DNA from: a virus
Reading direction: 5' to 3' (one strand)
Length of the DNA stretch: 22,257 bases
IMG/VR virus record: IMGVR_UViG_3300032157_000046
Span: 1 to 22,257 of that record
Shown: positions 1-21,909 of the stretch, in pieces
How the letters are laid out: every line of letters begins with the position of its first letter
Numbering within the stretch: the first letter of the stretch is position 1
The notes under the pieces: generated by a model
What the model saw: the letters and a program-made list of their open reading frames with translations, nothing else
The model's database searches: none
Told to the model about the DNA's origin: nothing
Program-made: the position numbers and the translations under genes

Positions 1-2586
1 TCTGATGCAGATAATTATATCACTTCAATCTCTGTACATTTACAATGGATTGATGAAATTATTTGTTTAGCGGTTCCTCCCGAAACACTTACTTGGGAAG
101 AAGCATCTGTTATTGCGGATGAAGTTGGTAGTGTAGTATTATTTAAAACTGAAGGTGAAATGCTAAGTGCATTCATGGATGTTATTGAAGATGCTGATAT
201 TTTAAGTGGTTGGAATAGTGAAGCATATGATATTCCATATGTTGTGAATCGTATCAAGAAAGTCCTTGGCAAACACGAAGCCCGTAAACTATGTCTGTGG
301 GAACAGGAACCTAAGGTTCGAGAATTCGAACGTGGTGGTAAAATCGCATCGACATATGATCTTCTTGGTCGTGTTCATGTGGATTATATGCAAGTCTATA
401 AAAAATATAATTATGAAGAACGCCATAGTTATGCATTGAATGCTATTGCTGAACAAGAACTCGGTGAAACAAAAATTGCATATGAAGGTACGTTGGATGA
501 ATTATATAATGACGACTTTAAAAAATTCTTAGAATATAACATTCAAGACACACGATTACTTGACAGGCTTGATAAGAAACTTCAATTCATTGATTTAGCA
601 AATTCCATTGCACATAGTAATTGTGTGCTTATTCAAACCACAATGGGTGCAGTTGCAGTTACTGATCAAGCAGTTCTATTAGAAGCCCATAGTAAGAATG
701 AAGTCTGTCCAAATAAAAAGCATGATAAAGATGAAGATTCAACACGGGCTGCGGGAGGCTGGGTTGCAACTCCTAGAAAAGGATTCCATAGATGGATTGC
801 ATCTACGGATATGAAGTCGCTATATCCATCTGTTATTCGTGCCTTGAATATGAGTCCAGAAACCATTGTTGGGCAAATCAGGCTTGACCGCACCGACCAG
901 GCTATTAAGGATTTCATTGCTAAAGGTAGCAAATATACATTTGCAGGGTGGTGGAACGATAGATTTAATGTTTTAGAAATGGAAGAATTCTATAATCAAG
1001 ATATTGCTACAAAGATTATACTTGATATGGAAGATGGTTCAGAATTTGAAGTCACTGGTAAAGAACTTTATGACTTAATCTTTAAGGGTGGACAACCATG
1101 GTGCATTAGTGCCAATGGTACAATTTTTAGAACTGATATTGAGGGTGTAATTCCGAGTCTATTAGCACGTTGGTATAATGAACGTAAGGTATTACAGAAA
1201 ATTATGACCAACTATCAAGACATAGAGGACAACGCTAAGATAGAAGGTGTAAAAGTACCCGAAGATTTGTTTATAAACAGTGATATTAGCGATACAGACT
1301 ATAAGGCTAATCCTTATGCTGATTCAGAATCTTATAAACCTGCTAAATTAAAGGAACTTATTGTCGAAGGCCATAAATTGCGTGTTGTTCAATATATGAA
1401 TCACCATAATTTGATGGTTAAGGACGGTAAGGCAATTCACAGGAATCAGAAAGATTTAAAGCGTATCATTGGATATTGGGATAAACGCCAATTGGTTAAG
1501 AAGATTAACTTGAACTCTGCCTATGGAGCTTTGTTAAATGCTGGAAGTCGATTCTTTGATCAGCGCCTTGGACAATCCACTACTTTAACAGGTAGAACCA
1601 TTACCAAACACATGGCGGCTAAAACTAATGAAATGATGACTGGTAGTTATGATCATTATGGAAAAGCCATTGTTTATGGTGATACTGATTCATGTTATTT
1701 TTCTGCATACTCTATTCTTAGAGAAGAAATTGAAAGAGGAGAGATTCTCTGGACAAAAGAGAGTATCATAGATTTGTATAATGATTTAGCGAAAGCAGTT
1801 TCTGCTACCTTTCCTGAATTCTTGCTTGAAAAATTGAATGTGCCTATTAAGCGTTCAACTGGTGTTATTGCAAGTTCGCGTGAAACTGTTTCTGAGACTG
1901 GTATTTGGATGGTTAAGAAGCGTTATGCTTGTTTAATGTATGACAAGGACGGTATTAGGCTTGACGTCGGTGGAAAGCCGGGTAAAGTTAAAGCCATGGG
2001 ATTGGATTTGAAGCGTGCTGATACTCCTAAGTTTGTTCAAACTTTCCTATCAGATATTTTAACTGATGCATTGTGTGATAAGGGTGAAAATGCTGTTATT
2101 GAAAAGATTCGTACATTCAAGGAACAATTTGAAGGTATGAAACCATGGCAGCAAGGAACACCACGTGCTGTTAACAAATTGTCACATTACAGAGATAAAA
2201 TTGAGGCAGCAGGGTTTCAAAAATTAAAAGGTATTGATCCTGGTAATTTGCATGTACCTGGACACGTTTCCGCAAGTCTGGCATGGAATAGACTTAAAGA
2301 AGCAAACATGGATCAACATGCAATGAAAATTATTGATGGACAGAAAATCATTGTATGTAAGTTAAGGGAAACTTCTGAAAATAGATTGAGTAGTATTGCA
2401 TATCCTGTCGATGAAGTTCATTTACCTGAATGGTTCTTAAATCTTCCATTTGACACAGATGGTATGCAAGCAGGTATTGTTGATAAGAAAGTTGAAAACT
2501 TACTAGGTGTTCTAAATTGGGATCTTAGCAGGTCAAATAAAGAACAAGCACATTTGGAAACCTTATTTGACTTCAGCTCTATGTGA
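1..2586 (+). CDS. 43: Family B DNA polymerase, T4 gp43-like (5' partial)
   Basis: This is the replicative phage DNA polymerase with 3'-5' proofreading. The reading frame is open from base 1, so the true start lies outside the window; by comparison with T4 gp43 roughly 120 N-terminal residues, including the ExoI motif, are missing. ExoII is visible as GWNSEAYDIPY (about bases 208-240) and ExoIII as YNIQD (about 535-549). Polymerase motif A is DMKSLYPSVIR (about 808-840), motif B is KKINLNSAYGALLN (about 1498-1540) and motif C is YGDTDS (1675-1692). The flanking order pol-clamp fits a replication module. An internal ATG at 160 would cut into the exonuclease domain, so I do not accept it as the start. 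No frame disruption is seen. The family assignment is secure; the symbol follows T4 usage. Confidence 0.97.
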   Translation, partial: SDADNYITSISVHLQWIDEIICLAVPPETLTWEEASVIADEVGSVVLFKTEGEMLSAFMDVIEDADILSGWNSEAYDIPYVVNRIKKVLGKHEARKLCLWEQEPKVREFERGGKIASTYDLLGRVHVDYMQVYKKYNYEERHSYALNAIAEQELGETKIAYEGTLDELYNDDFKKFLEYNIQDTRLLDRLDKKLQFIDLANSIAHSNCVLIQTTMGAVAVTDQAVLLEAHSKNEVCPNKKHDKDEDSTRAAGGWVATPRKGFHRWIASTDMKSLYPSVIRALNMSPETIVGQIRLDRTDQAIKDFIAKGSKYTFAGWWNDRFNVLEMEEFYNQDIATKIILDMEDGSEFEVTGKELYDLIFKGGQPWCISANGTIFRTDIEGVIPSLLARWYNERKVLQKIMTNYQDIEDNAKIEGVKVPEDLFINSDISDTDYKANPYADSESYKPAKLKELIVEGHKLRVVQYMNHHNLMVKDGKAIHRNQKDLKRIIGYWDKRQLVKKINLNSAYGALLNAGSRFFDQRLGQSTTLTGRTITKHMAAKTNEMMTGSYDHYGKAIVYGDTDSCYFSAYSILREEIERGEILWTKESIIDLYNDLAKAVSATFPEFLLEKLNVPIKRSTGVIASSRETVSETGIWMVKKRYACLMYDKDGIRLDVGGKPGKVKAMGLDLKRADTPKFVQTFLSDILTDALCDKGENAVIEKIRTFKEQFEGMKPWQQGTPRAVNKLSHYRDKIEAAGFQKLKGIDPGNLHVPGHVSASLAWNRLKEANMDQHAMKIIDGQKIIVCKLRETSENRLSSIAYPVDEVHLPEWFLNLPFDTDGMQAGIVDKKVENLLGVLNWDLSRSNKEQAHLETLFDFSSM

Positions 2587-2641: not shown

Positions 2642-3373
2642 ATGCTATTAGATTCATTGAAGGATATTGTAAAGCACACTCATTCGTTGGGCTTTATTGA
2701 AATGGTTAAATTAGTAGGAACAGCAAAGGATGCTAAGATTGAAGCAATTGACGCTGATAAGTCAGTTGTATTATATGGGGATTTATATCAACCTCTTAAA
2801 GAAATAGAAGCCACGATAGGATTATCACGTATGGGACTCTTAAAGGGATTTATAGAATTGCATGGTGATTCTAAGATTTCAGTTGAAGTTGAAACTCGTG
2901 GTACTGCATCTGTACCAACAGAATTAAAATTTGATGATGGCGAGGGTGACGTTGCATCTTATCGTTTTATGAGTGAAACAGTTGCAAATGATCAAATTAA
3001 AGTTCCACCATTTAAAGGTGCAGTATGGAATGTGACAGTTAAGCCAGAAAAGGCAAAAATTGATAGACTTAGCAAATATCAAGGTGTTCTTGGAAATAAC
3101 GAAAAGCGTTTTATTGTTTCAACAAAGAATGATGTGTTGAATTTTTCAATAGGAAATGGTCCTACAGATAGAAGTAATCTTCCGTTTGCATTAGGTATTA
3201 CAGGTTCTTTGAAACATCAATGGTCATGGCCATTGGCTCAAGTCTTGAGTATTCTTAAATTAAATGATGGAGGTGATGTCACAATGCATTTCTCGGATAT
3301 GGGTGCATTGAAGATTGACGTTGATAGTGGCGTTGGAAAGTATAGTTACATTCTCCCAGCAACAAAGGCCTAA
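2642..3373 (+). CDS. 45: DNA polymerase sliding clamp, gp45-like
   Basis: Predicted 243-residue processivity clamp that would ring DNA and tether the polymerase; in T4 it is also the mobile activator of late transcription. Support comes from its place directly after the polymerase gene, its length (T4 gp45 is 228 residues), the absence of catalytic motifs, the mixed alpha/beta pattern and a C-terminal YSYILPA strand typical of clamp folds. The start is set by GGAGG at 2629-2633, eight bases upstream. An upstream ATG at 2627 would place the ribosome site inside the coding region, and the 2567 ATG precedes the promoter. The gene is the first of a long rightward block and its TAA overlaps the next ATG. 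Primary-sequence similarity between clamps is low, so the call rests partly on context. Confidence 0.8.
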   Translation: MLLDSLKDIVKHTHSLGFIEMVKLVGTAKDAKIEAIDADKSVVLYGDLYQPLKEIEATIGLSRMGLLKGFIELHGDSKISVEVETRGTASVPTELKFDDGEGDVASYRFMSETVANDQIKVPPFKGAVWNVTVKPEKAKIDRLSKYQGVLGNNEKRFIVSTKNDVLNFSIGNGPTDRSNLPFALGITGSLKHQWSWPLAQVLSILKLNDGGDVTMHFSDMGALKIDVDSGVGKYSYILPATKA

Positions 3374-3537
3374 TGGAATTTCCGGAAAGTATAGATCCAG
3401 ATTCTGAACAGAAATTAGCTGAAAAGCTAAGTATGGATCCGACTGACTATGAATATCTCGAATTTATTCGCAGACATATGAAATATATTGTTGCGGAAGA
3501 AAACAAAAAACAAGATCCAGATAATGACAAACAATAG
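3373..3537 (+). CDS. Small acidic hypothetical protein (54 aa)
   Basis: This 54-residue frame starts at the ATG that overlaps the clamp stop (TAATG) and ends 14 bases inside the next gene. The start/stop coupling on both sides supports it as a real translated gene. The protein is strongly charged: an acidic N-terminus (MEFPESIDPDSEQKLAEKL), a short amphipathic middle (YEYLEFIRRHMKYIV) and a polar tail. No domain is recognised. In T4-like phages the clamp neighbourhood encodes small replication or transcription accessory proteins, but nothing here shows such a role. Confidence 0.7.
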   Translation: MEFPESIDPDSEQKLAEKLSMDPTDYEYLEFIRRHMKYIVAEENKKQDPDNDKQ

Positions 3538-5095
3538 AGTAAATTTTACAGAAAGAAATGATACTGGTGGCTGGGCAAAATATTTGCCAGCCATTAGTGG
3601 TTTTTACACGACGCACCTAGGAAAGGATCTTGCAGATGAAACTTTTGTTCCTGTAAGTCGTTTACCTGAAAAATTTGAATTTGGCCTACAAGGATTAAAT
3701 TTCTTAGATCCAGAATATAGTTATTTCAATTATAAATATGCTCTATTTTCTGCAGGTCACGCAGAAAGAAATTTAGCTAAATGCAATGATAGGGAACCTA
3801 TGATTCACAAGCGTGATCGTAAGAATACTGTTATTATTGGTGATTCGGGTGGATTTCAGATTGCAAAGGGAGTTATTAAACTAGATTGGTCTACGGTTAT
3901 GACTCCAGCCGGTGATAAATTGCGTGAAGAAATTTTACGTTATCTCGAACATACAGCGGACTGGTCTATGACGTTAGATGTTCCAGCATTTGCAGCATCA
4001 CCCGGTTTTAGCGAACGGACTGGACTTACCAAGTTTGAAGATTGTATTGATGTTACAGAATACAATTTAAATTATTTTATGAAACATCGAATTCCAGGTA
4101 AGACTAAGTTTTTGAATGTTATGTCTGGTAGCGATAATGCAAATTCTAAAGTTTGGTATGATCGTGTTAAGAAATATAGCATGCCTAGCGAAGTAGCAGA
4201 TATGGGATATTCAAAAGATCGTACTTTTGAAGGTTGGGCATTTGCAGGTGTTAATATGAGAAATATGCCTACCTTGCTTTCTCGTATGCTTGATTTGCGT
4301 AATGATGGACTACTAGAAGGAAAGGATTGGATCCACTTTCTTGGTGTAGGCAGACTCGACTGGGCATGTTTTCTGACATCAATCGAACGCCAATTAAAGA
4401 AATATGATAATCCTAATATCAATCTTAGTTTTGATGCCGCAAGTCCATTCGTAGCGGCTGGTGGATATGCATTATCTTACACTTATAATAAATTTGCACC
4501 AGATCAACTTACATACTCAATGAGTAAAGGTGTTGATGATAAATCTTTAAAAGGTAATAAACTTGCAATGCCATTTCAAGGTCCAATAATGGAGAGATTA
4601 ACCACTGCTGATATGTGTGTTATGGGTCCTAATGATAAAAACAAGCATGGAAAAGAAGGTAAGACAAGCTGGGATACCACTACCTATGCATTAGTTATGG
4701 CTCATAATGTGTACAACCATATTCAGGCAATTCAAGAAATTAATAGACTTGCTGATATTGAATATGCTACTCAGAAAAATGTAAATTTTAGAGATTGGTA
4801 TCAGAGCCAAAATAAGAAAACAAAACAAAATGATAAAAGTAGATTTATACCTAATACCATAATCTACTTTAACCAGTTTGTCGAAGAATTGTTTGATCCT
4901 TCTAATAAAAATCCGTATAATATGCTTAAAGAGTATAATGCATTCCTTGAATGTTTTAGCTTTGGTGAAAAGAAGAAAGCGTCTGAATTCAATACTTTCT
5001 TTGGTGATGACATTGAAGAAGATGAAGTTCATGAAATTCATGGAGAGGATCTTGCAGGAGAATATGATATGGAGAATCCACCCGAAGATGAATGA
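3524..5095 (+). CDS. dpdA: TGT-like 7-deazaguanine DNA transglycosylase (DpdA-like)
   Basis: This 523-residue protein belongs to the tRNA-guanine transglycosylase superfamily and most likely exchanges guanine in DNA for a 7-deazaguanine base. DSGGFQ at residues 107-112 is the TGT substrate-binding motif. Later segments TLDVPAF, GVNMRN, FLGVG and LSFDAASP follow the TGT barrel order, with D304 a candidate for the catalytic nucleophile. It is longer than bacterial TGT (about 375 residues) and I see no CxCxxC zinc site, which fits the DNA-acting DpdA branch rather than tRNA-acting TGT. QueD-like and QueE genes in the same block support a DNA-modification role. ATG 3524 is preferred over TTG 3488. 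The C-terminus is very acidic. A tRNA-acting archaeosine-type enzyme is the main alternative. Confidence 0.85.
   Translation: MTNNRVNFTERNDTGGWAKYLPAISGFYTTHLGKDLADETFVPVSRLPEKFEFGLQGLNFLDPEYSYFNYKYALFSAGHAERNLAKCNDREPMIHKRDRKNTVIIGDSGGFQIAKGVIKLDWSTVMTPAGDKLREEILRYLEHTADWSMTLDVPAFAASPGFSERTGLTKFEDCIDVTEYNLNYFMKHRIPGKTKFLNVMSGSDNANSKVWYDRVKKYSMPSEVADMGYSKDRTFEGWAFAGVNMRNMPTLLSRMLDLRNDGLLEGKDWIHFLGVGRLDWACFLTSIERQLKKYDNPNINLSFDAASPFVAAGGYALSYTYNKFAPDQLTYSMSKGVDDKSLKGNKLAMPFQGPIMERLTTADMCVMGPNDKNKHGKEGKTSWDTTTYALVMAHNVYNHIQAIQEINRLADIEYATQKNVNFRDWYQSQNKKTKQNDKSRFIPNTIIYFNQFVEELFDPSNKNPYNMLKEYNAFLECFSFGEKKKASEFNTFFGDDIEEDEVHEIHGEDLAGEYDMENPPEDE
3568..3593 (+). other. Strong hairpin early in dpdA
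   Basis: About 45 bases into dpdA, 3568-3578/9 pairs with 3583-3593: an 11-base-pair stem with one bulged G and a 3-base loop (ATA). A run of five T lies at 3601-3605, seven bases after the stem. It could pause or partly terminate transcription, or slow translation of dpdA; the offset T-run makes a true terminator less likely. The sequence also codes for GGWAKYLPAI, so chance is possible. Confidence 0.45.
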
Positions 5096-5321
5096 ATATC
5101 TTCAAAAAGAACTTTCTAGATTAGAATCACTGATTGCAACTCAGGTAGATTGTATAGGTGGTAGCGGAGATGCAATTCAATATATGCATGGAATGGCCAA
5201 TGGAATGATCCTTGCTCATTGCATGTTTGCAAACCAAAAACCTGCATTTATTAAACGTGTACGCAAACCTTATGGAAGAAACATTAGGCATAAATCAGCA
5301 AAATCGAAGAGGCATAGATAA
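5088..5321 (+). CDS. Hypothetical protein (77 aa), basic C-terminus
   Basis: The 77-residue frame starts at ATG 5088, overlapping the dpdA stop by eight bases. The protein is an N-terminal helical stretch (NEYLQKELSRLESLIATQ), a middle with repeated Met/Gly (GDAIQYMHGMANGMILAHCMF) and a strongly basic tail (KRVRKPYGRN...KSAKSKRHR) that could contact nucleic acid. I recognise no family. Longer readings of this frame start inside dpdA and look like out-of-frame dpdA, so the late start is preferred. Confidence 0.65.
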   Translation: MNEYLQKELSRLESLIATQVDCIGGSGDAIQYMHGMANGMILAHCMFANQKPAFIKRVRKPYGRNIRHKSAKSKRHR

Positions 5322-5322
5322 G

Positions 5323-5544
5323 ATGAAATGGGCAGCTAAAGATACGGAAGCTAATTTAGATTCCTGGAGTGAATGGTTTGCTTGGTATCCAGTGAAAATA
5401 GGTTCATCATGGATTTGGTTAGAAATGGTTGTCAGGCAGATGCAAAGACCTTATTATTATAGGCTTATTGATAAGATTTTCTTTATGCCTAGCTACAATT
5501 ATAAAGAATCCATACTTGACGTGATTAAGGATAGAAATGACTGA
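5323..5544 (+). CDS. Small aromatic hypothetical protein (73 aa)
   Basis: ATG 5323 follows the preceding stop by one base (TAAGATG), with AGAGG about a dozen bases upstream. The 73-residue product is rich in aromatic residues: the core WSEWFAWYPVKIGSSWIWLEMVVR has five tryptophans, followed by a Tyr/Phe-rich basic stretch. W..WFAW.PV......W.WL.. patterns are familiar from short phage proteins of unknown function, probably small beta-sheet domains. No catalytic motif is seen. The next small gene starts eight bases before this stop. Confidence 0.7.
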   Translation: MKWAAKDTEANLDSWSEWFAWYPVKIGSSWIWLEMVVRQMQRPYYYRLIDKIFFMPSYNYKESILDVIKDRND

Positions 5545-5683
5545 ATTTTTAATAATAATCGGAATTTCTTTTATAGCATTATGTGTGATACTGACACCAA
5601 TAGTTGCGTTTTCCTTCAGAAAAGAATTAATGGCCGCATATAGGGAATATAAAGATGAGCAAAAAAGAATACCGGAAAGATGA
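5537..5683 (+). CDS. Small single-pass membrane protein (48 aa)
   Basis: ATG 5537 lies eight bases before the preceding stop codon and the frame ends 29 bases inside the next gene. The 48-residue product begins with a long hydrophobic segment (about residues 4-25, FLIIIGISFIALCVILTPIVAF), then a charged helical tail (RKELMAAYREYKDEQKR). This is the layout of a single-pass inner-membrane miniprotein with a cytoplasmic or periplasmic tail. Membrane miniproteins of this type in phages are often linked to lysis control or superinfection exclusion, but no specific homology is seen. Confidence 0.7.
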   Translation: MTEFLIIIGISFIALCVILTPIVAFSFRKELMAAYREYKDEQKRIPER

Positions 5684-6089
5684 TGAAGCACCTTCCGATA
5701 TGTTTATAAATGCATTATCTGGTTATGGTGTCGGTTCTCCAGATTTAACTTGTGGTTGGTGTAATAGAATACACTTATGTCCAACTTCAGACTCATACAA
5801 ATTAGATGAAGATCATGGAAAAGGATGGAAAGAATATTGTGAAGAAGAATATAAAAATAATCCTGAAGGTGTAATACTTCATTGGAACTATGATTCGGTG
5901 TCTGGACAAGAAATAAATGGAATTTTATTTGTCATTGATTGTCCTTGTAACGGATTGATCAGATATGAAAAGTTTATTTGGGCAGAAAGAGATACTATTC
6001 GAAATTATTTAAAAGCTCGCACAGAACAAGAATATCAATGGGCCCAAGAAGAACTAACAAAAAATAAATTAGCAGGAATTAGTAAATGA
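5655..6089 (+). CDS. Cys-rich hypothetical protein (144 aa)
   Basis: The 144-residue protein starts at ATG 5655, inside the end of the membrane miniprotein gene, with AGGGA upstream at about 5642. It has a CGWC..HLC cluster near residues 33-42 and a second CPC pair near residue 98. Together these could bind zinc or iron, or form disulfides. The C-terminal third is helical (RDTIRNYLKARTEQEYQWAQEELTKNK). I do not recognise the family. It sits midway in the rightward block, with a one-base gap to the next gene. Confidence 0.75.
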   Translation: MSKKEYRKDDEAPSDMFINALSGYGVGSPDLTCGWCNRIHLCPTSDSYKLDEDHGKGWKEYCEEEYKNNPEGVILHWNYDSVSGQEINGILFVIDCPCNGLIRYEKFIWAERDTIRNYLKARTEQEYQWAQEELTKNKLAGISK

Positions 6090-6090
6090 T

Positions 6091-6339
6091 ATGGGAAAGG
6101 TAATATCTGATCATCTCGACCTATTAGGACAACCTTTAGCAGAAGGTAATTATGTTGCGGTATCGCATCATAATATGCTACAAGTGTGTCAAATCAAAAA
6201 ATTAAATCCAAAAATGATGCGAGTCATGCCTGTCAGGAATCATTACAGGCATGATGGATTTTTAATTTATTCAAATCAAGCAGTATTATTATCTGGTCAA
6301 GATGCTTTGGCATATATATTAACCTACGCAGGTGTATAA
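6091..6339 (+). CDS. Hypothetical protein (82 aa), SH3-like pattern
   Basis: The 82-residue protein starts at ATG 6091, two bases after the preceding TGA, and its stop overlaps the next ATG (TAATG). The pattern G-x-P-L-x-E-G-x-Y-V-A-V followed by short strands (MLQVCQIKKLNPKMMRVMPV) looks like a small barrel (SH3/KOW-like) fold, which is a weak inference. The middle of the gene carries an inverted repeat followed by a T-run (6224-6263), described separately. No function can be given. Confidence 0.75.
   Translation: MGKVISDHLDLLGQPLAEGNYVAVSHHNMLQVCQIKKLNPKMMRVMPVRNHYRHDGFLIYSNQAVLLSGQDALAYILTYAGV
6224..6263 (+). terminator. Terminator-like hairpin inside a coding gene
   Basis: TCATGCCTGT (6224-6233) and ACAGGCATGA (6245-6254) form a perfect 10-base-pair stem with an 11-base loop; TTTTT follows at 6259-6263, four bases after the stem. 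It lies in the middle of the 82-residue gene, far from any gene end. The T-run is offset, so at most a partial terminator or pause site; it may also be a protein-binding site. Confidence 0.4.
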
Positions 6340-6557
6340 TGGAAAAGAAAATATTAACCGAAGAGGAAGAAGCAGATGAGATTGTAAAAAGACTTGCAAC
6401 TCATCCAGCACCACCAGAATCTTTTAGTAACCGGTATTTTCGCACGGTAATTCTTCCATTAATTAGAAGCGTAGAACCGAAAACAATAGCTGCCGACATT
6501 TTAAGTGTCCAACCAATGTGGCAAGAAAAGGATAAAGATGAAGATTTACATAGTTGA
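6339..6557 (+). CDS. Small acidic hypothetical protein (72 aa)
   Basis: ATG 6339 shares a base with the preceding TAA. The 72-residue product has an acidic start (EKKILTEEEEADEIVKRL), a proline-containing middle (THPAPPESF) and a helical region (YFRTVILPLIRSVEPKTIAADILSVQPMW). It is mostly helical and soluble. The last 20 bases overlap the glycosyltransferase gene, which indicates translational coupling. No family is recognised. Confidence 0.72.
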   Translation: MEKKILTEEEEADEIVKRLATHPAPPESFSNRYFRTVILPLIRSVEPKTIAADILSVQPMWQEKDKDEDLHS

Positions 6558-7617
6558 CTTAGAATCTGTCCCTTCAAGATATACATGTGAATGGAAAACA
6601 TATCTTCCAGAAATGTTAAGAGCCGAAGTTAAAAAATCTGGTAAAGATATTGAAGTTATTAACATTTCTGGAGGAGAACAATCTATTGAAGCCACTCCAG
6701 GAGCATTCTTAAATTTTCAACAAACTAACATATACAAAAACAATCAATTGAATGACATAGCACAGAGATTTTCTACAGAAATAAAACCCGGTGATAAATT
6801 TGTATTTGCAGATGCGTGGCATACTGGTATTTTGCAATTGAAATACATGAGTGAGTTATTAAATATTCCTGTAGAAATACATGCATTATGGCATGCCGGT
6901 AGTTATGATCCACATGACTTTCTTGGACGCTTAATTAAGAATAAGGCATGGACGTATAATACAGAACGAGCATTATATCACGCCATTGATCATAATTATT
7001 TTGCAACAGACTTTCATATTGATTTGTTTGTAAAAACAATTATTGGAAATCAATCGTATATTATGATGGATATATTGACTGAGAAGATTATTCGATCTGG
7101 ATGGCCAATGGATTATATGCCTTCTATCACAAAGGATATAAAAAGTTCTAAAGAAGATATTATTGTTTTCCCACACCGTATAGCTCCAGAAAAGCAAGTT
7201 GATATATTCCGTGATTTAGCAAAAGAAATGCCTCAATATCAATTTATTGTGTGTCAAGATAATAAGCTAACTAAGTTAGAATATCATAAATTATACAGTA
7301 GGTCAAAAGTTATGTGGTCTGCAAATCTTCAAGAAACATTGGGAATTAGTCCATTTGAAGGTGCATTGCATGGTGTTTATCCATTATTACCTAATAGGTT
7401 GAGTTATACAGAAATGTATCCAGATCAGTTTTTATATCCGTCTGAATGGACAGTATCATTCGAAGCATATACAAAGCATAAGGCCGATGTAATTGCAATA
7501 ATAGACAGGGCCATGAAATCCCATTCGTCAATGTTAGATGACATAGAGAAATTATCAAATCATTTATTACAAGAGTATTTTACAGCTACGTCATTAGTAG
7601 AAAAATTAATTAATTAA
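6538..7617 (+). CDS. GT4-like (GT-B fold) glycosyltransferase
   Basis: This 359-residue protein has the C-terminal half of a retaining GT4-type glycosyltransferase. VFPHRIAPEKQVDIFRDLA (about residues 208-226) is the donor-domain start seen in such enzymes. ETLGISPFEGALHGVYPLLPNR contains the EX7E motif (E266 and E274) followed by the G.YPLLP turn that binds the sugar-nucleotide donor. The N-terminal half (MKIYIVDLESVPSRY...FVFADAWHTGILQLKY) would be the acceptor domain. ATG 6538 overlaps the preceding gene by 20 bases; the longer in-frame start at 6505 lies deeper in it. The acceptor is unknown. Position between dpdA, QueD-like and queE suggests modified DNA as one possible acceptor; host surface or protein glycosylation are alternatives. 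Confidence 0.8.
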   Translation: MKIYIVDLESVPSRYTCEWKTYLPEMLRAEVKKSGKDIEVINISGGEQSIEATPGAFLNFQQTNIYKNNQLNDIAQRFSTEIKPGDKFVFADAWHTGILQLKYMSELLNIPVEIHALWHAGSYDPHDFLGRLIKNKAWTYNTERALYHAIDHNYFATDFHIDLFVKTIIGNQSYIMMDILTEKIIRSGWPMDYMPSITKDIKSSKEDIIVFPHRIAPEKQVDIFRDLAKEMPQYQFIVCQDNKLTKLEYHKLYSRSKVMWSANLQETLGISPFEGALHGVYPLLPNRLSYTEMYPDQFLYPSEWTVSFEAYTKHKADVIAIIDRAMKSHSSMLDDIEKLSNHLLQEYFTATSLVEKLIN

Positions 7618-7626
7618 GGGAAAATT

Positions 7627-8427
7627 ATGAAAAGAGATGGACACGAAAAAGCAATATTCTTTATAGGACCAGAAGTAGAACATACTCCTGCGTATTCTAA
7701 GAAGACTTTGTTTGTTGTTGGTAAGCAAGATTTAAATAAAATTGTAGAATTAGCAAGAGAACATAAAGTTCCACATGTTTTTATGGGTGCGAATCATTCA
7801 TTTGATTTTGATCCGGCCGATAATACCCACTATTGGGATCTAACTATTCAAGCATTATTGGATCGTGGATTTTGGGTAACTTTAGATTATGAAGCACATC
7901 AGCATAAATCAGTTCTTAAGATGTTAGGACCACATACTTGGCAATCAAGAATGTTTGTTCCATTGTTAAGTGTTCGTATTCCAAATATTCAAAATTCGAG
8001 CGTTAACTTAACTGTTAAGATGGATGACATTGATTTTAAAGCAACTAATCCAGGTGTATGGTGTATGCACTTTCATGAAGTGACAGATAGCAATCGTTTC
8101 ACTGATTGGATCGAATATGGTAATGACTATGTAATTGATACCGAAATAGTTAAGGAGGAGCCAATAACTCCTGCCGATATGATTGTTACAACACCATCGA
8201 GTCGTTCCAAAGAATTAATTGAAGAATTAAAGAAAAAGGTATCTCCTGTTAAGAATGATGAAAATCTTGGATTAGATCCAGATTCGAAATCTATGCTAAA
8301 AGGTGAGCCAGAAAGGATAATGGAAAAATTAAATATTACAGCACTTGATGCGGCTGAAGCCTATGCTGAAGGTGCAAAAACAGATCCGTTAGGTAAAGAA
8401 ACTCTTACACTTAAGAAAAAGAAATGA
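7627..8427 (+). CDS. Conserved phage protein of unknown function (266 aa)
   Basis: The 266-residue protein opens with GHEKAIFFIGPEVEHTPAYSKKTLFVVG, then a Rossmann-like alternation of strands and helices (DLNKIVELAREHKVPHVFMGANHSF; YWDLTIQALLDRGFWVTLDYEAHQH). A middle part (LLSVRIPNIQNSSVNLTVKMDDIDFKATNPGVWCMHFHEV) is rich in His/Asp/Cys that could hold a metal or catalytic site. The last 70 residues are low-complexity and charged. I recall similar proteins from T4-like phages but no function. It lies nine bases after the glycosyltransferase and overlaps the queD-like start by an ATGA, so it is probably part of the same pathway. No QueC P-loop (SGGxDS) is present. Confidence 0.8.
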   Translation: MKRDGHEKAIFFIGPEVEHTPAYSKKTLFVVGKQDLNKIVELAREHKVPHVFMGANHSFDFDPADNTHYWDLTIQALLDRGFWVTLDYEAHQHKSVLKMLGPHTWQSRMFVPLLSVRIPNIQNSSVNLTVKMDDIDFKATNPGVWCMHFHEVTDSNRFTDWIEYGNDYVIDTEIVKEEPITPADMIVTTPSSRSKELIEELKKKVSPVKNDENLGLDPDSKSMLKGEPERIMEKLNITALDAAEAYAEGAKTDPLGKETLTLKKKK

Positions 8428-8786
8428 TTGAATCAAGACAAATATTTGTAACTTTTCAAAAAGAAGGTATTCATCGTTATCCAGATGCACCAGCAGGGGT
8501 AGAATTTTTACGTCATCCACACCGTCACATTTTCCATTTTAAAGTTAAGGTTGATGTTTTCCATAATGATCGTGATATTGAGTTTATCCTTTTCAAACGA
8601 GAACTTGAGTCACTTTATTCTGCACAAACATTAGAGGTGGATTACAAAAGCTGTGAAATGCTTGCAGAGGAATTAATTGATTACATATCTAAAAAATATC
8701 CTAAGCGCAAAGTTTCTGTCGAAGTCAGCGAAGATGGAGAAAACGGTGCTATCCTGTCCTATTATACCCCCACCAAAGTTTCATAA
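8424..8786 (+). CDS. queD: QueD/6-pyruvoyl-tetrahydropterin synthase-like protein
   Basis: This 120-residue protein resembles QueD, which makes 6-carboxy-tetrahydropterin from dihydroneopterin triphosphate in the 7-deazaguanine pathway. The zinc site can be read as H17, H33 and H35 (HRH), matching the spacing of the QueD zinc ligands. IEFILFKREL stands for the usual DFxxLK helix start, SCEMLAEELIDYI for the PTSENLAxWI helix, and VSVEVSEDGENGAILSYY for the final strand with its Glu. The canonical catalytic Cys before HGH and the DHxxLN motif are both absent, so activity may differ. It starts by ATGA overlap with the preceding gene. Role inferred from the neighbouring dpdA-like and queE genes. 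Confidence 0.72.
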   Translation: MIESRQIFVTFQKEGIHRYPDAPAGVEFLRHPHRHIFHFKVKVDVFHNDRDIEFILFKRELESLYSAQTLEVDYKSCEMLAEELIDYISKKYPKRKVSVEVSEDGENGAILSYYTPTKVS

Positions 8787-8982
8787 AAGATATAAAACTA
8801 TTGTCAAAGTTGATGTCCACAAGGGTATAGAATATGTGTCAATGATGGAATGGATTGATCAGAATAGTAAGGGTTCAGTTGATGTAAAATCAATATCCGA
8901 TGGTTATGGAACTCTTGTTCTCTATTACGGTTTTGAAAATAGTGATGATGCGTTAGTCTTTAAAATAAAATATTCAAAATGA
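8746..8982 (+). CDS. Small protein with C-terminal FKIKY motif (78 aa)
   Basis: The product overlaps the end of the queD-like gene. The start is best placed at GTG 8746, because GGAG at 8736-8739 lies six bases upstream; ATG 8734 in the same frame is the alternative but has no ribosome site. The C-terminus YYGFENSDDALVFKIKYSK matches a motif found in three other small genes of this window (12109, 12508 and 19352). The body shows beta strands (YKTIVKVDVHKGIEYVSMMEW; GTLVLYYGFE). The TGA overlaps the next ATG. Function unknown. Confidence 0.7.
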   Translation: MLSCPIIPPPKFHKRYKTIVKVDVHKGIEYVSMMEWIDQNSKGSVDVKSISDGYGTLVLYYGFENSDDALVFKIKYSK

Positions 8983-9233
8983 GCACAAATAATACAACAG
9001 GTGATAGATGGGTTTTTCGCAAAGAAACAGAAGATTGGGCCGGTCATTATCATGGGGTGAACAATAAATATCCTGTTATGGATATAGATCAAAGATTAAG
9101 GAGAGTTGAGGAACAATTATTACTTGTTGCTCCACCTGTTGATATGCTTGCTAAATATCCTGCACTTGCTGAAGCATACCAAAATTACAAAATAATTGAA
9201 AGGCTAGCATTAGGAAATGATAAAACCACATAA
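8979..9233 (+). CDS. Hypothetical helical protein (84 aa)
   Basis: ATG 8979 overlaps the preceding TGA (ATGA). The N-terminus is polar with a Trp-rich piece (DRWVFRKETEDWAGHYHG), followed by a helical region, IDQRLRRVEEQLLLVAPPVDMLAKYPALAEAYQNYKIIERLAL, that could form a short coiled coil. The pattern RLR.VEE.LLL..P....L.KYPAL..AY..Y..IE is one I associate with small phage proteins of unknown role. It overlaps the epimerase start by 17 bases. Confidence 0.75.
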   Translation: MSTNNTTGDRWVFRKETEDWAGHYHGVNNKYPVMDIDQRLRRVEEQLLLVAPPVDMLAKYPALAEAYQNYKIIERLALGNDKTT

Positions 9234-10212
9234 AGTATTAATCACAGGAGGTGGTGGGTTTATTGGAACCCAGGTATCCTGGGAATTGGCAGAAGCCGGC
9301 CATGATGTTACAATTGTTGATAGAAATCCTCCTATTCATAATTTTCCGGGTGTATATCGAATTGCTGACTTTTTAGATTTCATTCGATCTACCGATCAAA
9401 CATTCGATACAATCATACACCTTGCGGCGGAGCACCTCATTGAGTATAGCGTGTCTGATCCGGAGAAATATTATACAAATAACGTGATAAAAACAAAGGC
9501 ATTGCTTGAAGTTATGCGTGAACGCAGAATAAAAAATATTGTTTTTAGTTCAAGCGGAAATGTATATGGCAGACAAGGTAGCAAAAGTTCTCTCTCAGAA
9601 AATATTTATTATGATCCTGAAAATCCATATGCGGCTTCTAAGGTAACCGGTGAACTTATGGTTAAAGATTATTCTAGAGCATATGGATTAAATTATGTAA
9701 TCTTTAGATATTTTAATGCTTCTGGCGCCGACCCAAAATGTCGATTTGGTTATGTCCAACGACCTGCTACTCATGTTATTCCTGTCCTATGTAATAAAAT
9801 CCTAAATGGAGAAATGTTTCCAATATTTGGAAGTAATTATCCTACATTAGATGGAACATGTGTTCGCGATTATGTTCATGTAGCAGATTTGGCAAGAGCT
9901 CATACCAAGGCTTTAGAATTGTTTGATGGTCAAATAGCAAATCAAACATTAAATCTTGGTGGCGGCAGTGAAGGTATTAGTGTTAAAGAGTTAGTATATC
10001 ATGCAGCAACAATTGTTAAGAAAGATCCTGTTATTGAATATAAGATACGTCGACTTGGTGATTCTGCCAGACTGGTAGCTAATATTTCAAGAGCAAAGGT
10101 TATTTTAGATTGGGAACCAAAATATGACATTAAGTCTATTATTCAACACGCCTGGAATTGGGAGAAAAAATATAATGAGCAAATGGTTGGAAAAATTCAA
10201 GAAGAAATCTAA
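9217..10212 (+). CDS. NAD-dependent sugar-nucleotide epimerase (GalE-like SDR)
   Basis: This 331-residue extended short-chain dehydrogenase/reductase has a TGGGGFIG nucleotide-binding loop at residues 10-17, a catalytic Ser region SSSGNVYG (about 111-118), and YxxxK as Y138 and K142 (PYAASKVTGE). The FRYFNASGADP and GTCVRDYVHVADLARAH segments are typical of UDP-glucose 4-epimerase and related UDP-sugar epimerases. It would interconvert a nucleotide sugar in the cytoplasm, possibly the donor for the glycosyltransferase 1.6 kb upstream. ATG 9217 has AGGA a few bases upstream and overlaps the preceding gene by 17 bases. The exact substrate cannot be read; a dehydratase or other SDR sugar enzyme is possible. 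Confidence 0.9.
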   Translation: MIKPHKVLITGGGGFIGTQVSWELAEAGHDVTIVDRNPPIHNFPGVYRIADFLDFIRSTDQTFDTIIHLAAEHLIEYSVSDPEKYYTNNVIKTKALLEVMRERRIKNIVFSSSGNVYGRQGSKSSLSENIYYDPENPYAASKVTGELMVKDYSRAYGLNYVIFRYFNASGADPKCRFGYVQRPATHVIPVLCNKILNGEMFPIFGSNYPTLDGTCVRDYVHVADLARAHTKALELFDGQIANQTLNLGGGSEGISVKELVYHAATIVKKDPVIEYKIRRLGDSARLVANISRAKVILDWEPKYDIKSIIQHAWNWEKKYNEQMVGKIQEEI

Positions 10213-10756
10213 AATGAATACTAAAACTTCACCTGTTCCTTCTACAGATAGCTTTCAGGGAATCCTTTCAGATCCCATTTATCAAAGTATGTTAACAGAT
10301 ACATTTGTAGGTGCGTCTACTGCTGTATCATATCCATATAATGTTACCTCGGTAGCAGCAACAGCAATGACAACAGCTAATCCTAATTTTACTGGTACAA
10401 TCAATATTAATCCGTCTACATTTAGTATTGGTAATATAAATTATCAGCCGCCATATGTAATTCAATTAAGTAATAATGGAAAAGAAATTGTTAGATTGAA
10501 TAATGATGGTTCAGTTGAGTGGAATAAAGAAATTAATATAGATGAAGCAGCAGAAGCATTCAGTAGAACATTATCTATGGGTGCAGAACTATCTGCAGGT
10601 ATTACCAAGAAAGTTAAACTAAATATGCGAGATAGCGTATTTAATGATCTTATTGCTATTGCCAAAGAAAAAGGAAGTTTAACAGCGGAGGATTTGACTT
10701 TTCTATTAGAGGCGTCTAAAATAGTTGAAAAGCTAAAGGGCAGCAATGACACTTGA
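10175..10756 (+). CDS. Conserved phage hypothetical protein (193 aa)
   Basis: The start at ATG 10175 has GGGAG about ten bases upstream and overlaps the epimerase end by 38 bases; ATG 10214 just after the epimerase stop is the alternative. The N-terminus is basic (MSKWLEKFKKKSK), followed by a Ser/Thr/Asn-rich low-complexity region (about residues 15-85). A conserved-looking part follows: IQLSNNGKEIVRLNNDGSVEWNKEINIDEAAEAFSRTL, then helices ending in LTAEDLTFLLEASKIVEKLKG. The NNGKEIVRLNNDGSVEW piece looks like a small beta module seen in other T4-like phage proteins. No function is known to me. Confidence 0.75.
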   Translation: MSKWLEKFKKKSKMNTKTSPVPSTDSFQGILSDPIYQSMLTDTFVGASTAVSYPYNVTSVAATAMTTANPNFTGTININPSTFSIGNINYQPPYVIQLSNNGKEIVRLNNDGSVEWNKEINIDEAAEAFSRTLSMGAELSAGITKKVKLNMRDSVFNDLIAIAKEKGSLTAEDLTFLLEASKIVEKLKGSNDT

Positions 10757-10925
10757 AGAATTGAAACAGATAAGAGAATCATTAGAAGAATGTGGTCCCG
10801 ATGTAGAGAATTTCTCTTGGGGTCCAACATTGCATTTCGCACAGGAACGCAGAAAACAAGCACTAAAAATACTTAATCGAGAAATAAAGAGAATTAAGGA
10901 AAATAATGAGCAAAAAGAAGACTAA
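10746..10925 (+). CDS. Small helical hypothetical protein (59 aa)
   Basis: This 59-residue frame begins 11 bases before the preceding stop and ends 20 bases inside the next gene, so it is coupled on both sides. The product is almost wholly helical and charged: LEELKQIRESLEECG at the start and FAQERRKQALKILNREIKRIKENNEQKED at the end, with an FSWGPT turn between. It could form a helical hairpin or bind a partner. No family is recognised. Confidence 0.7.
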   Translation: MTLEELKQIRESLEECGPDVENFSWGPTLHFAQERRKQALKILNREIKRIKENNEQKED

Positions 10926-11238
10926 ATACACCCTAGAAGAGCAATTAGAAATAAAGAAGGCAATTATCAAAGAGTTTGGTTTAGTTGAAAAGAAGGTAAC
11001 ACAAGTTTGGTTAGATTCATTTGACATTAAACCTGATCCAGAAAATCCCGATCATTGGGATTTTTTGCTTTATAGTAAAGAAAAAGAATGTTATATTAAT
11101 TTAAAATTCTTTCCAAAGATTACAATCGAGCCTACACATACTACAAATTATCAACTCGGTGTTTTAAATTATGAAAAGAATATGCCAATAGAAACAATTC
11201 TTTGGTATTTGCATAATATATTAGATACAAGGGAATAA
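10906..11238 (+). CDS. Hypothetical protein (110 aa)
   Basis: ATG 10906 has AAGGA a few bases upstream. The 110-residue product starts with a basic helical stretch (KKKTKYTLEEQLEIKKAIIKEFG), then a WDFLLYSKEKECYINLKFFPKITIEP strand region and a C-terminal helix (MPIETILWYLHNILDTRE). No motif is recognised. The middle of the gene contains a complete intrinsic-terminator-like structure at 11042-11066. It lies directly upstream of queE, with one base between stop and start. Confidence 0.78.
   Translation: MSKKKTKYTLEEQLEIKKAIIKEFGLVEKKVTQVWLDSFDIKPDPENPDHWDFLLYSKEKECYINLKFFPKITIEPTHTTNYQLGVLNYEKNMPIETILWYLHNILDTRE
11042..11066 (+). terminator. Intrinsic-terminator-like hairpin inside a gene upstream of queE
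   Basis: AAAATCCC (11042-11049) pairs with GGGATTTT (11057-11064) around a 7-base loop (GATCATT), and T runs continuously from 11061 to 11066. This is the textbook layout of a Rho-independent terminator but it lies within the 110-residue gene, about 175 bases before queE. It could attenuate expression of queE and the genes beyond. It could also be a chance product of coding for PENPDHWDFLL. Confidence 0.5.
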
Positions 11239-11239
11239 T

Positions 11240-12112
11240 ATGTTTGGATCAAATGAAATCGTAGGTCAGAAGTTTTTTAAAGATGCACCAAAGGATAGCT
11301 TGTTTGTTACAAGCATGTTTCTTACATTACAAGGTGAGGGTCCATTAGGTGGATTAGTAGCATTATTCATTCGTCTAACCAAATGTAATCTTGCATGTTC
11401 ATTTTGTGATACGTTCTTTGACGCTGGTGATTGGATGTCATTTGAACAGATTGAAGAAAAAGCAAAAGAAACAATCAGAAATTATTTTAATGGAGACCCA
11501 CCTGATTGGGCAATATCTAATAGAGGTGGACCTTTACATCCAGGTGTTGCGTTAGTTATTACAGGTGGTGAACCTACTTTACAAAAGAATTTAACAGAAT
11601 TCTTAAGAAGACAGGTAGGTGATTACAAAGCAGTTCAAATTGAAAGTAATGGAACAGTCAATTTAGAAATTCCAAAAGGTGTCTTACTTGTTTGTAGTCC
11701 TAAGTGTGCAGAAAAGGATGGTAAACCTACCAAATATCTAGCACCAACTAAACAAATACTTCAACGTGCAGATTGCTTGAAATTTGTAATGAGCGCAGAA
11801 AAGGATAGTCCATATAGTGAAGTACCGGATTGGGTTCATGATTGGAAACATAGAACAAGTGGAGAAGTTTATATTAGTCCAATGAATATGTATAATGATT
11901 ATCCATATAGGGCTAAGATTCTTAGAGCAGAAAAACAAGGTGAAATTACCATGTTCGAACGCTCTACAGTAGATGAAGTTATTAGTTTCTGGGAACCAGG
12001 TTTATTGAATATGCGAGCCAATCAAACCAACCATGAATATGCGGCTAAATATTGTATGTCACATGGGTTTAGATTAAACTTACAGGTACACTTATACGCA
12101 TCATTGGCATGA
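11240..12112 (+). CDS. queE: 7-carboxy-7-deazaguanine synthase, radical SAM (QueE)
   Basis: QueE converts 6-carboxy-tetrahydropterin to 7-carboxy-7-deazaguanine, using a 4Fe-4S cluster and S-adenosylmethionine. The signature is clear: TLQGEGPLGG (QGEG at 31-34), FIRLTKCNLACSFCDTFF with cluster ligands C49, C53 and C56 (CxxxCxxC), VITGGEPTLQ (the SAM-binding GGEP) and VQIESNGT. At 290 residues it is longer than most bacterial QueE (about 210-240), with an insert around NYFNGDPPDWAISNRGG and an extended C-terminus. ATG 11240 lies two bases after the preceding stop, and its TGA overlaps the next ATG. With the dpdA-like gene it argues for guanine-to-deazaguanine modification of phage DNA. Confidence 0.95.
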   Translation: MFGSNEIVGQKFFKDAPKDSLFVTSMFLTLQGEGPLGGLVALFIRLTKCNLACSFCDTFFDAGDWMSFEQIEEKAKETIRNYFNGDPPDWAISNRGGPLHPGVALVITGGEPTLQKNLTEFLRRQVGDYKAVQIESNGTVNLEIPKGVLLVCSPKCAEKDGKPTKYLAPTKQILQRADCLKFVMSAEKDSPYSEVPDWVHDWKHRTSGEVYISPMNMYNDYPYRAKILRAEKQGEITMFERSTVDEVISFWEPGLLNMRANQTNHEYAAKYCMSHGFRLNLQVHLYASLA

Positions 12113-16595: not shown

Positions 16596-16960
16596 GGAAG
16601 TGTGTCTACAAAATAATCGGGATACATTTTCCCAAATTTTCTCATTATTACTCCAGCCACGGCATTAGCCTCATTTTCAATTTCACTTCCGTCGGAACCG
16701 TCTAGTTCCATTCCTTGATTAAGTTGTTGCCAATGAACTAATTCATGTACTAAAGTTCTCATAACATCCATTGGATGTCTATCCTTAGAAACAACTCTTA
16801 CTGAATTTCCATCGAACTCCCCAAATGAGGTTCCGCCTCCCACAGCAGAATCGTCATCAACAAGATTTATTGGAGGCAACTCATCAATTCCAAGCTCATT
16901 CTTGCAGAGTTGTAACAAATGTGTTATCATATGTTCTTGGACAACTTCGTATAATTTCAT
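16592..16960 (-). CDS. Zinc metallopeptidase, HExxH type (IrrE/ImmA-like layout)
   Basis: This leftward gene encodes 122 residues from ATG 16960. VHELVHWQQ at residues 71-79 gives the zinc-binding HExxH (H72, H76) with catalytic E73. ENEANAVAG (E97) supplies a likely third ligand, in the E-x-AN-x-x-A layout of ImmA/IrrE-type peptidases. The small size and lack of a signal peptide suggest a cytoplasmic enzyme acting on a phage or host protein. The start at 16960 is preferred over those further upstream because a GATAAATA octamer lies at 16966-16973 on this strand, and the predicted start site is the A of this ATG. The first residues (MKLYEVVQ) resemble the MRIHEF start of the other leftward gene. 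Confidence 0.82.
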   Translation of the reverse strand: MKLYEVVQEHMITHLLQLCKNELGIDELPPINLVDDDSAVGGGTSFGEFDGNSVRVVSKDRHPMDVMRTLVHELVHWQQLNQGMELDGSDGSEIENEANAVAGVIMRKFGKMYPDYFVDTLP

Positions 16961-16965
16961 AACAC

Positions 16966-16973
16966 TATTTATC
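16966..16973 (-). promoter_or_regulatory. Late-type promoter octamer GATAAATA (leftward)
   Basis: On the minus strand the octamer lies five bases upstream of ATG 16960. By T4 late spacing (+1 six bases after the octamer) the A of the ATG is the predicted first transcribed base, so the mRNA would be leaderless. It also ends directly at the ATG of the divergent HNH gene (16974). Confidence 0.6.
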
Positions 16974-17519
16974 ATGAACGCCGCAGACAACAAATCCGAA
17001 TGGAAAAATCTAGACACATTAAAGTTCGACGAACTAACTATCGAACAACTTTTAGATTTAAATGAACAATTAGCCTTATTAAGGAAGCATCAAGAAGCAC
17101 TTAAATGGTTGGAAAATTGCCCTAAATGGGCTAAAGAATTTATCCTAACACCTAAGAATGCCGATTCTGCTAAATTAAAATTTCAATTTCTGAAACAGAA
17201 TATATCTAGAGCCAAAAACAGAAAGGATGGTAAAGTAATAGACATAACACCAGAATACGTTTGGTGGGTTGGACATAATCAAGACTGGAAATGTTCCCTT
17301 ACTGGTGTAGAATTAGAATTTACTCGAGGAGGATATCGGTGGGGTGGAAAATGGTGTAATCCGTTTAGTTGTACCATGGATCGAATAGATAGTAAGAAAG
17401 GATATGTAGAAGATAATATTCAATTAGTAACTTGGCAATCCAATTGTATGAAACGTGATATTAGTAATGAGGAATTTATAGCAATTTGTAATGCAGTACA
17501 TTCGCATAATAAGAAATGA
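16974..17519 (+). CDS. HNH-like endonuclease
   Basis: The 181-residue protein has a helical N-terminus (about residues 20-60, FDELTIEQLLDLNEQLALLRKHQEALKWLE). The nuclease-like core follows from about residue 100: W-K-C-S-L-T-G-V-E-L (C107), then C-x-M-D-R-I-D-S-K-K-G-Y-V-x-D-N-I-Q-L-V-x-W-x-x-N (D136-D139) and a terminal helix. This CxLTGxxL...MDRID..KGY..DNI..V...N order is a known HNH variant in phage free-standing endonucleases. ATG 16974 lies 13 bases from the divergent metallopeptidase start. A TATAAT-like element (16950-16955) lies upstream without a good -35, and no Shine-Dalgarno sequence is visible. A homing role is inferred. Its stop overlaps the next start. Confidence 0.82.
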   Translation: MNAADNKSEWKNLDTLKFDELTIEQLLDLNEQLALLRKHQEALKWLENCPKWAKEFILTPKNADSAKLKFQFLKQNISRAKNRKDGKVIDITPEYVWWVGHNQDWKCSLTGVELEFTRGGYRWGGKWCNPFSCTMDRIDSKKGYVEDNIQLVTWQSNCMKRDISNEEFIAICNAVHSHNKK

Positions 17520-21366: not shown

Positions 21367-21909
21367 ATGGACTATCCAAAAACAGCAAAAGAGGCAAAAG
21401 AAATAAATGCACACAAATATTTTACAGGATTAGAATGTAAATTTAATCATATATCTCCAAGATATACGCATAATAGTCAATGTGTCGAATGTGGTAAAAT
21501 TGCAGGCAGGAAAGCCAGAAATACGCCCGAAGGTAAAATATATGAAAAAGAATATTATAGAAGAATTCGAACTGAGCGTGTAGAACAGATAATGTTAAAT
21601 TCGGCCAAAGGCAGGGCAAGAAAAAGAAATATACCGTGTTTGATAAATGCAGAAGATATTTTAAATGTATGGCCTTCAAACGGCTTATGTCCTGTGTTAG
21701 GTATTGAATTAAAACATAATTATGATAAGAATGGTGGTCATACTTCCAATTCACCATCATTAGATTGTATAAATCCTAAATTAGGATATATTCCTGGAAA
21801 TATCGCAGTGATGTCACAGAAAGCGAATTTACTAAAAGGGGACGAAATAGATCCAGCTATTTTTAGAAAAATAGCAAATTGGATAGAATCGCAAAACCTG
21901 TTGCGCTAA
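21367..21909 (+). CDS. HNH-type endonuclease with N-terminal zinc motif
   Basis: The 180-residue protein has a zinc-type N-terminus (C24, H28, C39, C42 in CKFNHISPRYTHNSQCVEC), a very basic middle (about residues 47-90) and an HNH-like core: C108-P-V-L-G-I-E-L, then S-P-S-L-D-C-I-N-P-K-L-G-Y-I-x-G-N-I-A-V-M-S-x-K-A-N (D133). The core matches the HNH protein at 16974 in order, though DRID is replaced by DCIN, so activity may differ. It is very AT-rich against the rtcB gene before it and the gene after it, and has its own late promoter and ribosome site, all consistent with a mobile homing-endonuclease insertion. Confidence 0.85.
   Translation: MDYPKTAKEAKEINAHKYFTGLECKFNHISPRYTHNSQCVECGKIAGRKARNTPEGKIYEKEYYRRIRTERVEQIMLNSAKGRARKRNIPCLINAEDILNVWPSNGLCPVLGIELKHNYDKNGGHTSNSPSLDCINPKLGYIPGNIAVMSQKANLLKGDEIDPAIFRKIANWIESQNLLR

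Follow-up and report, generated by a model that had tools for sequence, protein, structure and literature searches.

DpdA enzymes and 7-deazaguanine synthesis genes are known from several phages. They provide the closest comparisons for the locus considered here, a block of predicted 7-deazaguanine DNA-modification genes in a 22,257-nt virus fragment (IMG/VR record IMGVR_UViG_3300032157_000046; the whole fragment is hereafter the window). The DpdA2 pathway of Vibrio phage nt-1 (YP_008125322; Hutinet 2019, PMC6884629) has in common with this system FolE, QueD, QueE, and an enzyme of the tRNA-guanine transglycosylase (TGT) fold without zinc-binding cysteines. However, nt-1 has QueC and lacks both a QueD-like protein and a glycosyltransferase, and the window enzyme represents a separate, longer subfamily. 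The DpdA1 pathway of Enterobacteria phage 9g shares the gene order polB, clamp, dpdA, but the transglycosylases have no detectable sequence relation, and no QueD-like protein or glycosyltransferase was found in 9g. Phage 9g makes archaeosine through Gat-QueC. Cellulophaga phages phiST and phi13:1 share FolE, QueD, QueE, the QueD-like protein, and the lack of QueC; they differ in that neither a window-type glycosyltransferase nor a transglycosylase of the window or DpdA2 type was found. A looser parallel is the glucosylated hydroxymethylcytosine of T4, in which a modified DNA base receives its sugar after replication, as the base considered here would. The T4 base is different, however; it enters as a modified dNTP rather than through base exchange, and the pathway is unrelated.

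The window very probably encodes part of a DNA 7-deazaguanine system, and the modified base is probably derived from 7-carboxy-7-deazaguanine (CDG). Overall, we lean toward a QueC-free cassette for a CDG-derived, glycosylated DNA hypermodification with a clamp-tethered DpdA. No report of glycosylated 7-deazaguanine in DNA was found in the searchable literature, most subscription papers lying outside its reach.

A conserved gene block

The block lies entirely on the + strand: polB; a 243-aa protein in the clamp position; the TGT-like gene; small genes; the glycosyltransferase gene; a conserved gene of unmatched sequence; the QueD-like gene; a GalE-type epimerase gene; queE; a 5' exonuclease gene; and others. 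The TGT-like, QueD-like, and QueE genes recur in largely conserved order across 53 non-redundant loci, so their grouping is not due to chance. A first-pass annotation of the window had taken these three genes as dispersed within a rightward block beside the polymerase. The rightward orientation downstream of polB stands, but the genes form one conserved cassette. That annotation was right in kind and incomplete, in that it passed over three members of the conserved set: the glycosyltransferase, the epimerase, and the gene of unmatched sequence. Sequence-based identification gave no match for the last of these, whose homologues also occur in PA5oct-type phages and adjoin DpdA2 in ACP17.

No near DNA relative of the window was present among the phage records searched. 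Relatives of the transglycosylase are encoded in 129 viral stretches, and tblastn located relatives in 11 PA5oct-type Pseudomonas phage records (49%), Sinorhizobium phage Phosso, and Vibrio phage 2.275.O.

A divergent DpdA-like transglycosylase

The TGT-like reading frame begins with ATG at 3524 and is open from 3488. Searches of Pfam, PHROGs, and NCBIfam gave its product no match better than chance, and PADLOC returned no DpdA match. The AlphaFold model (pLDDT 85.6), however, has the TGT (beta/alpha)8 fold: in a Foldseek comparison with the PDB, all 8 matches at E<=0.001 are TGTs (best 1q65, E 5.4e-6, probability 1.00). The conserved TGT catalytic aspartates, D107, D152, and D304, are invariant in 30 of 30 sequences, and the catalytic motifs are present in all 79 full-length relatives. 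Three invariant segments, GDSGGFQ, LDVP, and SFDAAS, fall at positions of the TGT active site, and hhalign aligns the segments NVMSG, EGWAFAG, HFLGVGR, and SFDAASP with E. coli TGT. The zinc-site motif CxCxxC, by contrast, is absent from the window protein and from all 79 full-length relatives. The first-pass description of a TGT-superfamily protein with DSGGFQ and no CxCxxC thus holds.

Identity as a tRNA TGT was considered and rejected, on the failure of both the Pfam and the zinc tests; PF01702 (tRNA TGT) has no match in the window protein or in 22 relatives' records. When profiles were compared, the family proved related to DpdA2 (Prob 95, E 3e-8), whereas no relation was detected to 9g DpdA1 or to the phi38:2 enzyme. 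The link to DpdA2 is remote, and the window protein has no match to phrog_10773, the DpdA2 subfamily. We treat the window enzyme as a separate, divergent DpdA-like subfamily, remotely related in sequence to phage DpdA2. Its substrate is presumably DNA. The fold, the catalytic residues, the DpdA2 relation, and the presence of QueE all favor the DpdA-type pathway proposed at first pass.

QueE, a repurposed QueD, and the synthesis pathway

QueE was correctly recognized from the outset. It matches phrog_2076 (1.7e-49) and the solved 7-carboxy-7-deazaguanine synthase 6nhl (4.4e-11), and keeps the radical-SAM CxxxCxxC motif as CNLACSFC. Most of the 129 cassette QueE proteins (L026, L044, L065, and about 100 others) differ in this respect: a 34-45 aa insertion displaces the third radical-SAM cysteine, giving CxxxC-x(34-45)-CD.

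The QueD-like protein has the QueD fold, but is not the pathway QueD that its first label might imply. Its AlphaFold model (pLDDT 92) matches E. coli QueD (4ntk) with E 1.7e-6 and TM 0.69. Aligned with that enzyme, it still has the glutamate that anchors the base and all three histidines of the metal site, but the catalytic cysteine and the Asp-His pair are lost. Indeed, none of 142 QueD-like members has the C...HxH pattern. The fold comparison is decisive here, hhalign giving only a partial match to canonical phage QueD (Prob 44). Moreover, the protein occurs alongside canonical QueD in PA5oct, Phosso, ACP17, X1, phi13:1, RHph_I1_18, and large contigs. A working QueD (CPH4 synthase) was rejected on both grounds, the lost catalytic residues and the co-occurrence. 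By its residues, then, the protein is a repurposed paralogue outside the QueD step. It may act on the CDG carboxylate, because the base pocket and metal site are retained. Two longer proteins, one from Vibrio phage Bakedbeans (L113:11224-12375) and one from Chryseobacterium phage MA9V-3 (L117:11431-12312), have a QueD-like domain at the carboxyl terminus.

The other synthesis genes lie elsewhere in relatives' genomes. Among 22 relatives' records, 19 contain FolE and 12 contain canonical QueD; records of at least 160 kb all have canonical QueD, except L079 and L080. FolE and QueD are often near each other and far from the transglycosylase. Host supply, suggested at first pass to account for the missing FolE, is therefore not supported, most relatives having FolE, and usually canonical QueD, in their own genomes. 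Full-length QueC is found among these 22 records only in Vibrio 2.275.O, other matches spanning part of the profile. Next to its transglycosylase, that phage encodes QueF, a Vut_1 (YhhQ-type) transporter, QueC, and FolE. Neither the window nor any of the 142 QueD-like loci contains QueC. Given these QueC-free relatives, the likely intermediate is CDG, and the earlier suggestion of a product not derived from preQ0 gains support.

A purine (xanthine-guanine type) phosphoribosyltransferase gene is present in 71 of the 142 QueD-like loci (e.g., L081:18937-19371, L114:7456-7917), and absent from the window. The enzyme could salvage guanine freed by base exchange.

Two branches

Of the 142 QueD-like loci, each counted once, 133 have a DpdA, 128 the glycosyltransferase, 116 QueE, and 112 FolE; QueC is found in none of them. 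Conversely, 15 QueC loci contain neither the QueD-like gene nor the glycosyltransferase gene. The exclusion gives a Fisher p of 1.6e-9, uncorrected for relatedness among the loci or for their selection. In a set of 23 records, the QueD-like gene is present in 19 and missing in exactly the four that have full-length QueC.

The pattern extends to a second transglycosylase. Phages ACP17, X1, and BUCT-ZZ01 encode a different enzyme, homologous to nt-1 DpdA2, and a scan with the DpdA2 family found 80 further loci, most having QueE, FolE, DpdA2, the QueD-like protein, the glycosyltransferase, and QueD together. Two DpdA subfamilies thus occur with the same QueC-free set of FolE, QueD, QueE, DpdA, QueD-like protein, and glycosyltransferase. 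The exclusion implies that each DpdA lineage comprises one branch with QueC and another with the QueD-like protein and the glycosyltransferase, and together with the recurring QueC-free set it indicates that the product is probably derived from carboxy-deazaguanine.

Glycosyltransferase, sugar genes, and bacterial islands

The glycosyltransferase profile has three matches in the PDB, all of them weak and all glycosyltransferases; its homologues score higher. Homologues that span 80% or more of the query come from 15 phage records, all 15 with the QueD-like gene. The predicted glycosyltransferase and the GalE-type epimerase are probably members of the modification system, and the modified base is, on balance, likely to be glycosylated. 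In some relatives, Gfo/Idh-type and zinc alcohol-dehydrogenase-type genes accompany or replace that for the epimerase; different phages may therefore use different sugars.

The strongest sign of a joint role for the glycosyltransferase and the transglycosylase comes from bacterial chromosomes. In alphaproteobacteria (Sulfitobacter, Shimia, Pseudooctadecabacter, Pelagibacterium), genes for a small membrane protein, a glycosyltransferase homologue (39-42%), and a TGT-like protein (31%) adjoin. The membrane protein of one locus (L266) matches PF02592 (vitamin/queuosine-precursor transporter) just under the cut-off. No synthesis genes lie near the bacterial glycosyltransferase/TGT-like pairs, and for that reason precursor uptake would fit these loci. 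Integrase genes are common among the bacterial loci. Loci L260, L261, L266, L270, and L259 encode a transporter-like protein, the glycosyltransferase, and the TGT-like protein, followed in four by a protein of 585-592 aa. A further 12 proteobacterial loci (L253, L256, L272, and others) have a TGT-like gene beside that for a conserved protein about 570 aa long. Tyrosine integrase genes are frequent in their vicinity, and these loci have neither a glycosyltransferase nor synthesis genes.

A polymerase-like tail motif

The transglycosylase carries a tail predicted to be disordered in the AlphaFold model. In the window protein it contains EFNTFFGDD, at about residues 488-496, a hydrophobic-acidic peptide of the T4-type clamp-client kind. 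Such tail peptides (h-x-x-[LF]-[FW]) resemble the carboxyl terminus of the neighboring polymerase (e.g., VMDTFFEF and VMDNFFEF in locus L050). The window polymerase ends in AHLETLFDFSSM, which resembles the end of T4 DNA polymerase (gp43), ASLDFLFG. Polymerase carboxyl termini of this kind bind the gp45 clamp (PMC2988020, PMC7892883).

The motif is present in 37 of 53 window-type tails, against 13.2 expected from shuffles, the pattern having been picked after inspection of these same tails. DpdA2 offers a fairer test: there the motif lies at the extreme carboxyl terminus of 36 of 46 unique tails, against 1.4 expected, and the frequency among other clustered genes is 2.1%. The 9g DpdA ends in LQDLFDE. 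From the polymerase-like motif we infer, with moderate confidence, that DpdA is tethered to the replisome clamp through its tail peptide. The clamp itself would be the putative sliding clamp encoded at 2642-3373, so named for its position and for the annotation of its Phosso homologue.

A model and its alternatives

These observations suggest a pathway. FolE and canonical QueD, which relatives encode at other sites in the genome, would act with QueE to make CDG, where the pathway would branch because QueC is absent. The DpdA-like enzyme would exchange guanine in replicated DNA for a CDG-derived base, and its polymerase-like tail peptide would hold it at the sliding clamp, so that modification follows replication. 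The QueD-fold paralogue would process the C7 carboxylate, by decarboxylation or activation, before or after insertion. Finally, the glycosyltransferase, supplied by the GalE-type epimerase, would add a sugar to the base in DNA. The folds, the kept and lost active-site residues, the recurring gene set, the exclusion between QueC and the QueD-like protein, and the tail motif come directly from computation, whereas the enzyme substrates, DNA as the target, the sugar and the atom that carries it, and binding to the clamp are inferred from sequence and predicted structure. The fullest version, a glycosylated CDG-derived 7-deazaguanine and clamp-tethered DpdA in two phage DpdA subfamilies, together with integrase-linked bacterial islands lacking synthesis genes, we put forward only tentatively.

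Several points weigh against this model. The tail motif is absent from the DpdA2 proteins of nt-1 and pf16, and the protein at 2642-3373, called a clamp since the first-pass annotation, showed no match to T4 gp45 or to any clamp in the PDB. As a glycosyl acceptor a carboxylate is unusual, and a decarboxylated base would offer no obvious acceptor. Records of the L079/L080 type have no detectable canonical QueD. The window, moreover, is a fragment, and the status of FolE, QueD, and QueC is read from relatives rather than from its own genome.

Phages of the phiST and RHph_I1_18 types, which carry the QueD-like gene without the window glycosyltransferase family, also count against the model. Together with phi13:1, D479, and others, they favor an alternative in which the DNA base has no sugar: CDG itself or its decarboxylated form (dCDG/dDG), with the QueD-like protein, perhaps the predicted DpdL, decarboxylating CDG, and with the glycosyltransferase and epimerase serving another purpose, for example a change of surface glycans. 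Both dCDG and dDG reportedly occur in phage DNA, and a decarboxylase, DpdL, is said to have been predicted. We consider this alternative unlikely, because the glycosyltransferase accompanies the QueD-like gene in 128 of 142 loci and with two DpdA subfamilies, and pairs with a TGT-like gene on bacterial chromosomes that lack synthesis genes nearby.

Somewhat less likely still is an ordinary preQ0-type modification for which the host provides QueC. Most bacteria encode QueC, the window is incomplete, and some phages lack parts of the 7-deazaguanine pathway (Hutinet 2019, PMC6884629). Yet in both DpdA subfamilies the phages that keep QueC lack the QueD-like gene and the glycosyltransferase, and vice versa. 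Quite improbable is action on tRNA, with the glycosyltransferase making a glycosylated queuosine-like base. The closest solved folds are indeed tRNA TGTs, and animal tRNA contains sugar-modified queuosine. Against this stand the missing PF01702 matches and zinc cysteines, the remote relation to DpdA2 rather than to tRNA TGT, the position after polB in 52 of 53 loci, and the polymerase-like tail.

Features of the window

Table 1. Genes of the modification block and its replication neighbors in the window
Feature	Position	Strand	Basis
DNA polymerase B (5' end cut)	1..2586	+	phrog_262, 6.5e-176
Putative sliding clamp	2642..3373	+	phrog_12062; clamp position in 52/53 loci; sliding-clamp annotation of the Phosso homologue
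TGT-superfamily transglycosylase, DpdA-like, 523 aa	3524..5095	+	Fold; invariant Asp; no CxCxxC; remote DpdA2 relation; tail motif
Predicted GT-B type (GT4-like) glycosyltransferase	6535..7617	+	Profile against PDB, best E 0.006; gene-set recurrence
Conserved cassette gene, core about 170 aa	7627..8427	+	Found in 40/53 loci
QueD-fold paralogue, phrog_17812	8424..8786	+	Metal-site His (three) and Glu retained; no catalytic Cys or Asp-His
UDP-glucose 4-epimerase (GalE) type enzyme	9217..10212	+	TIGR01179, 291 bits (cut-off 262); 28/53 loci
QueE, 7-carboxy-7-deazaguanine synthase, radical SAM	11240..12112	+	phrog_2076; 6nhl; CNLACSFC

Farther downstream, the window contains two endonuclease VII / HNH-type endonuclease genes (16953-17519 and 21367-21909) and an RtcB-family RNA ligase gene (20117-21310), the latter not found in other sampled relative loci.

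Implications

A role in protection from restriction, as assumed at first pass, is plausible by analogy with described phage systems (Hutinet 2019, PMC6884629). The gene set is widespread in phages, and glycosylated 7-deazaguanine in DNA would, if true, be a new hypermodification. To our knowledge, the phage 7-deazaguanines described so far carry small C7 groups. A sugar would then form a bulkier shield against restriction, and also a new target for modification-dependent nucleases.

The tail motif provides a concrete mechanism by which DpdA could gain access to newly made DNA, and the exclusion between QueC and the QueD-like protein allows the modification branch of a phage to be predicted from its genome by a simple rule. 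Moreover, the cassette is present in cultured phages (PA5oct/Paride, Phosso, and ACP17), which makes the base directly identifiable. One of these, Paride, is a Pseudomonas aeruginosa jumbo phage of the PA5oct group that kills dormant cells.

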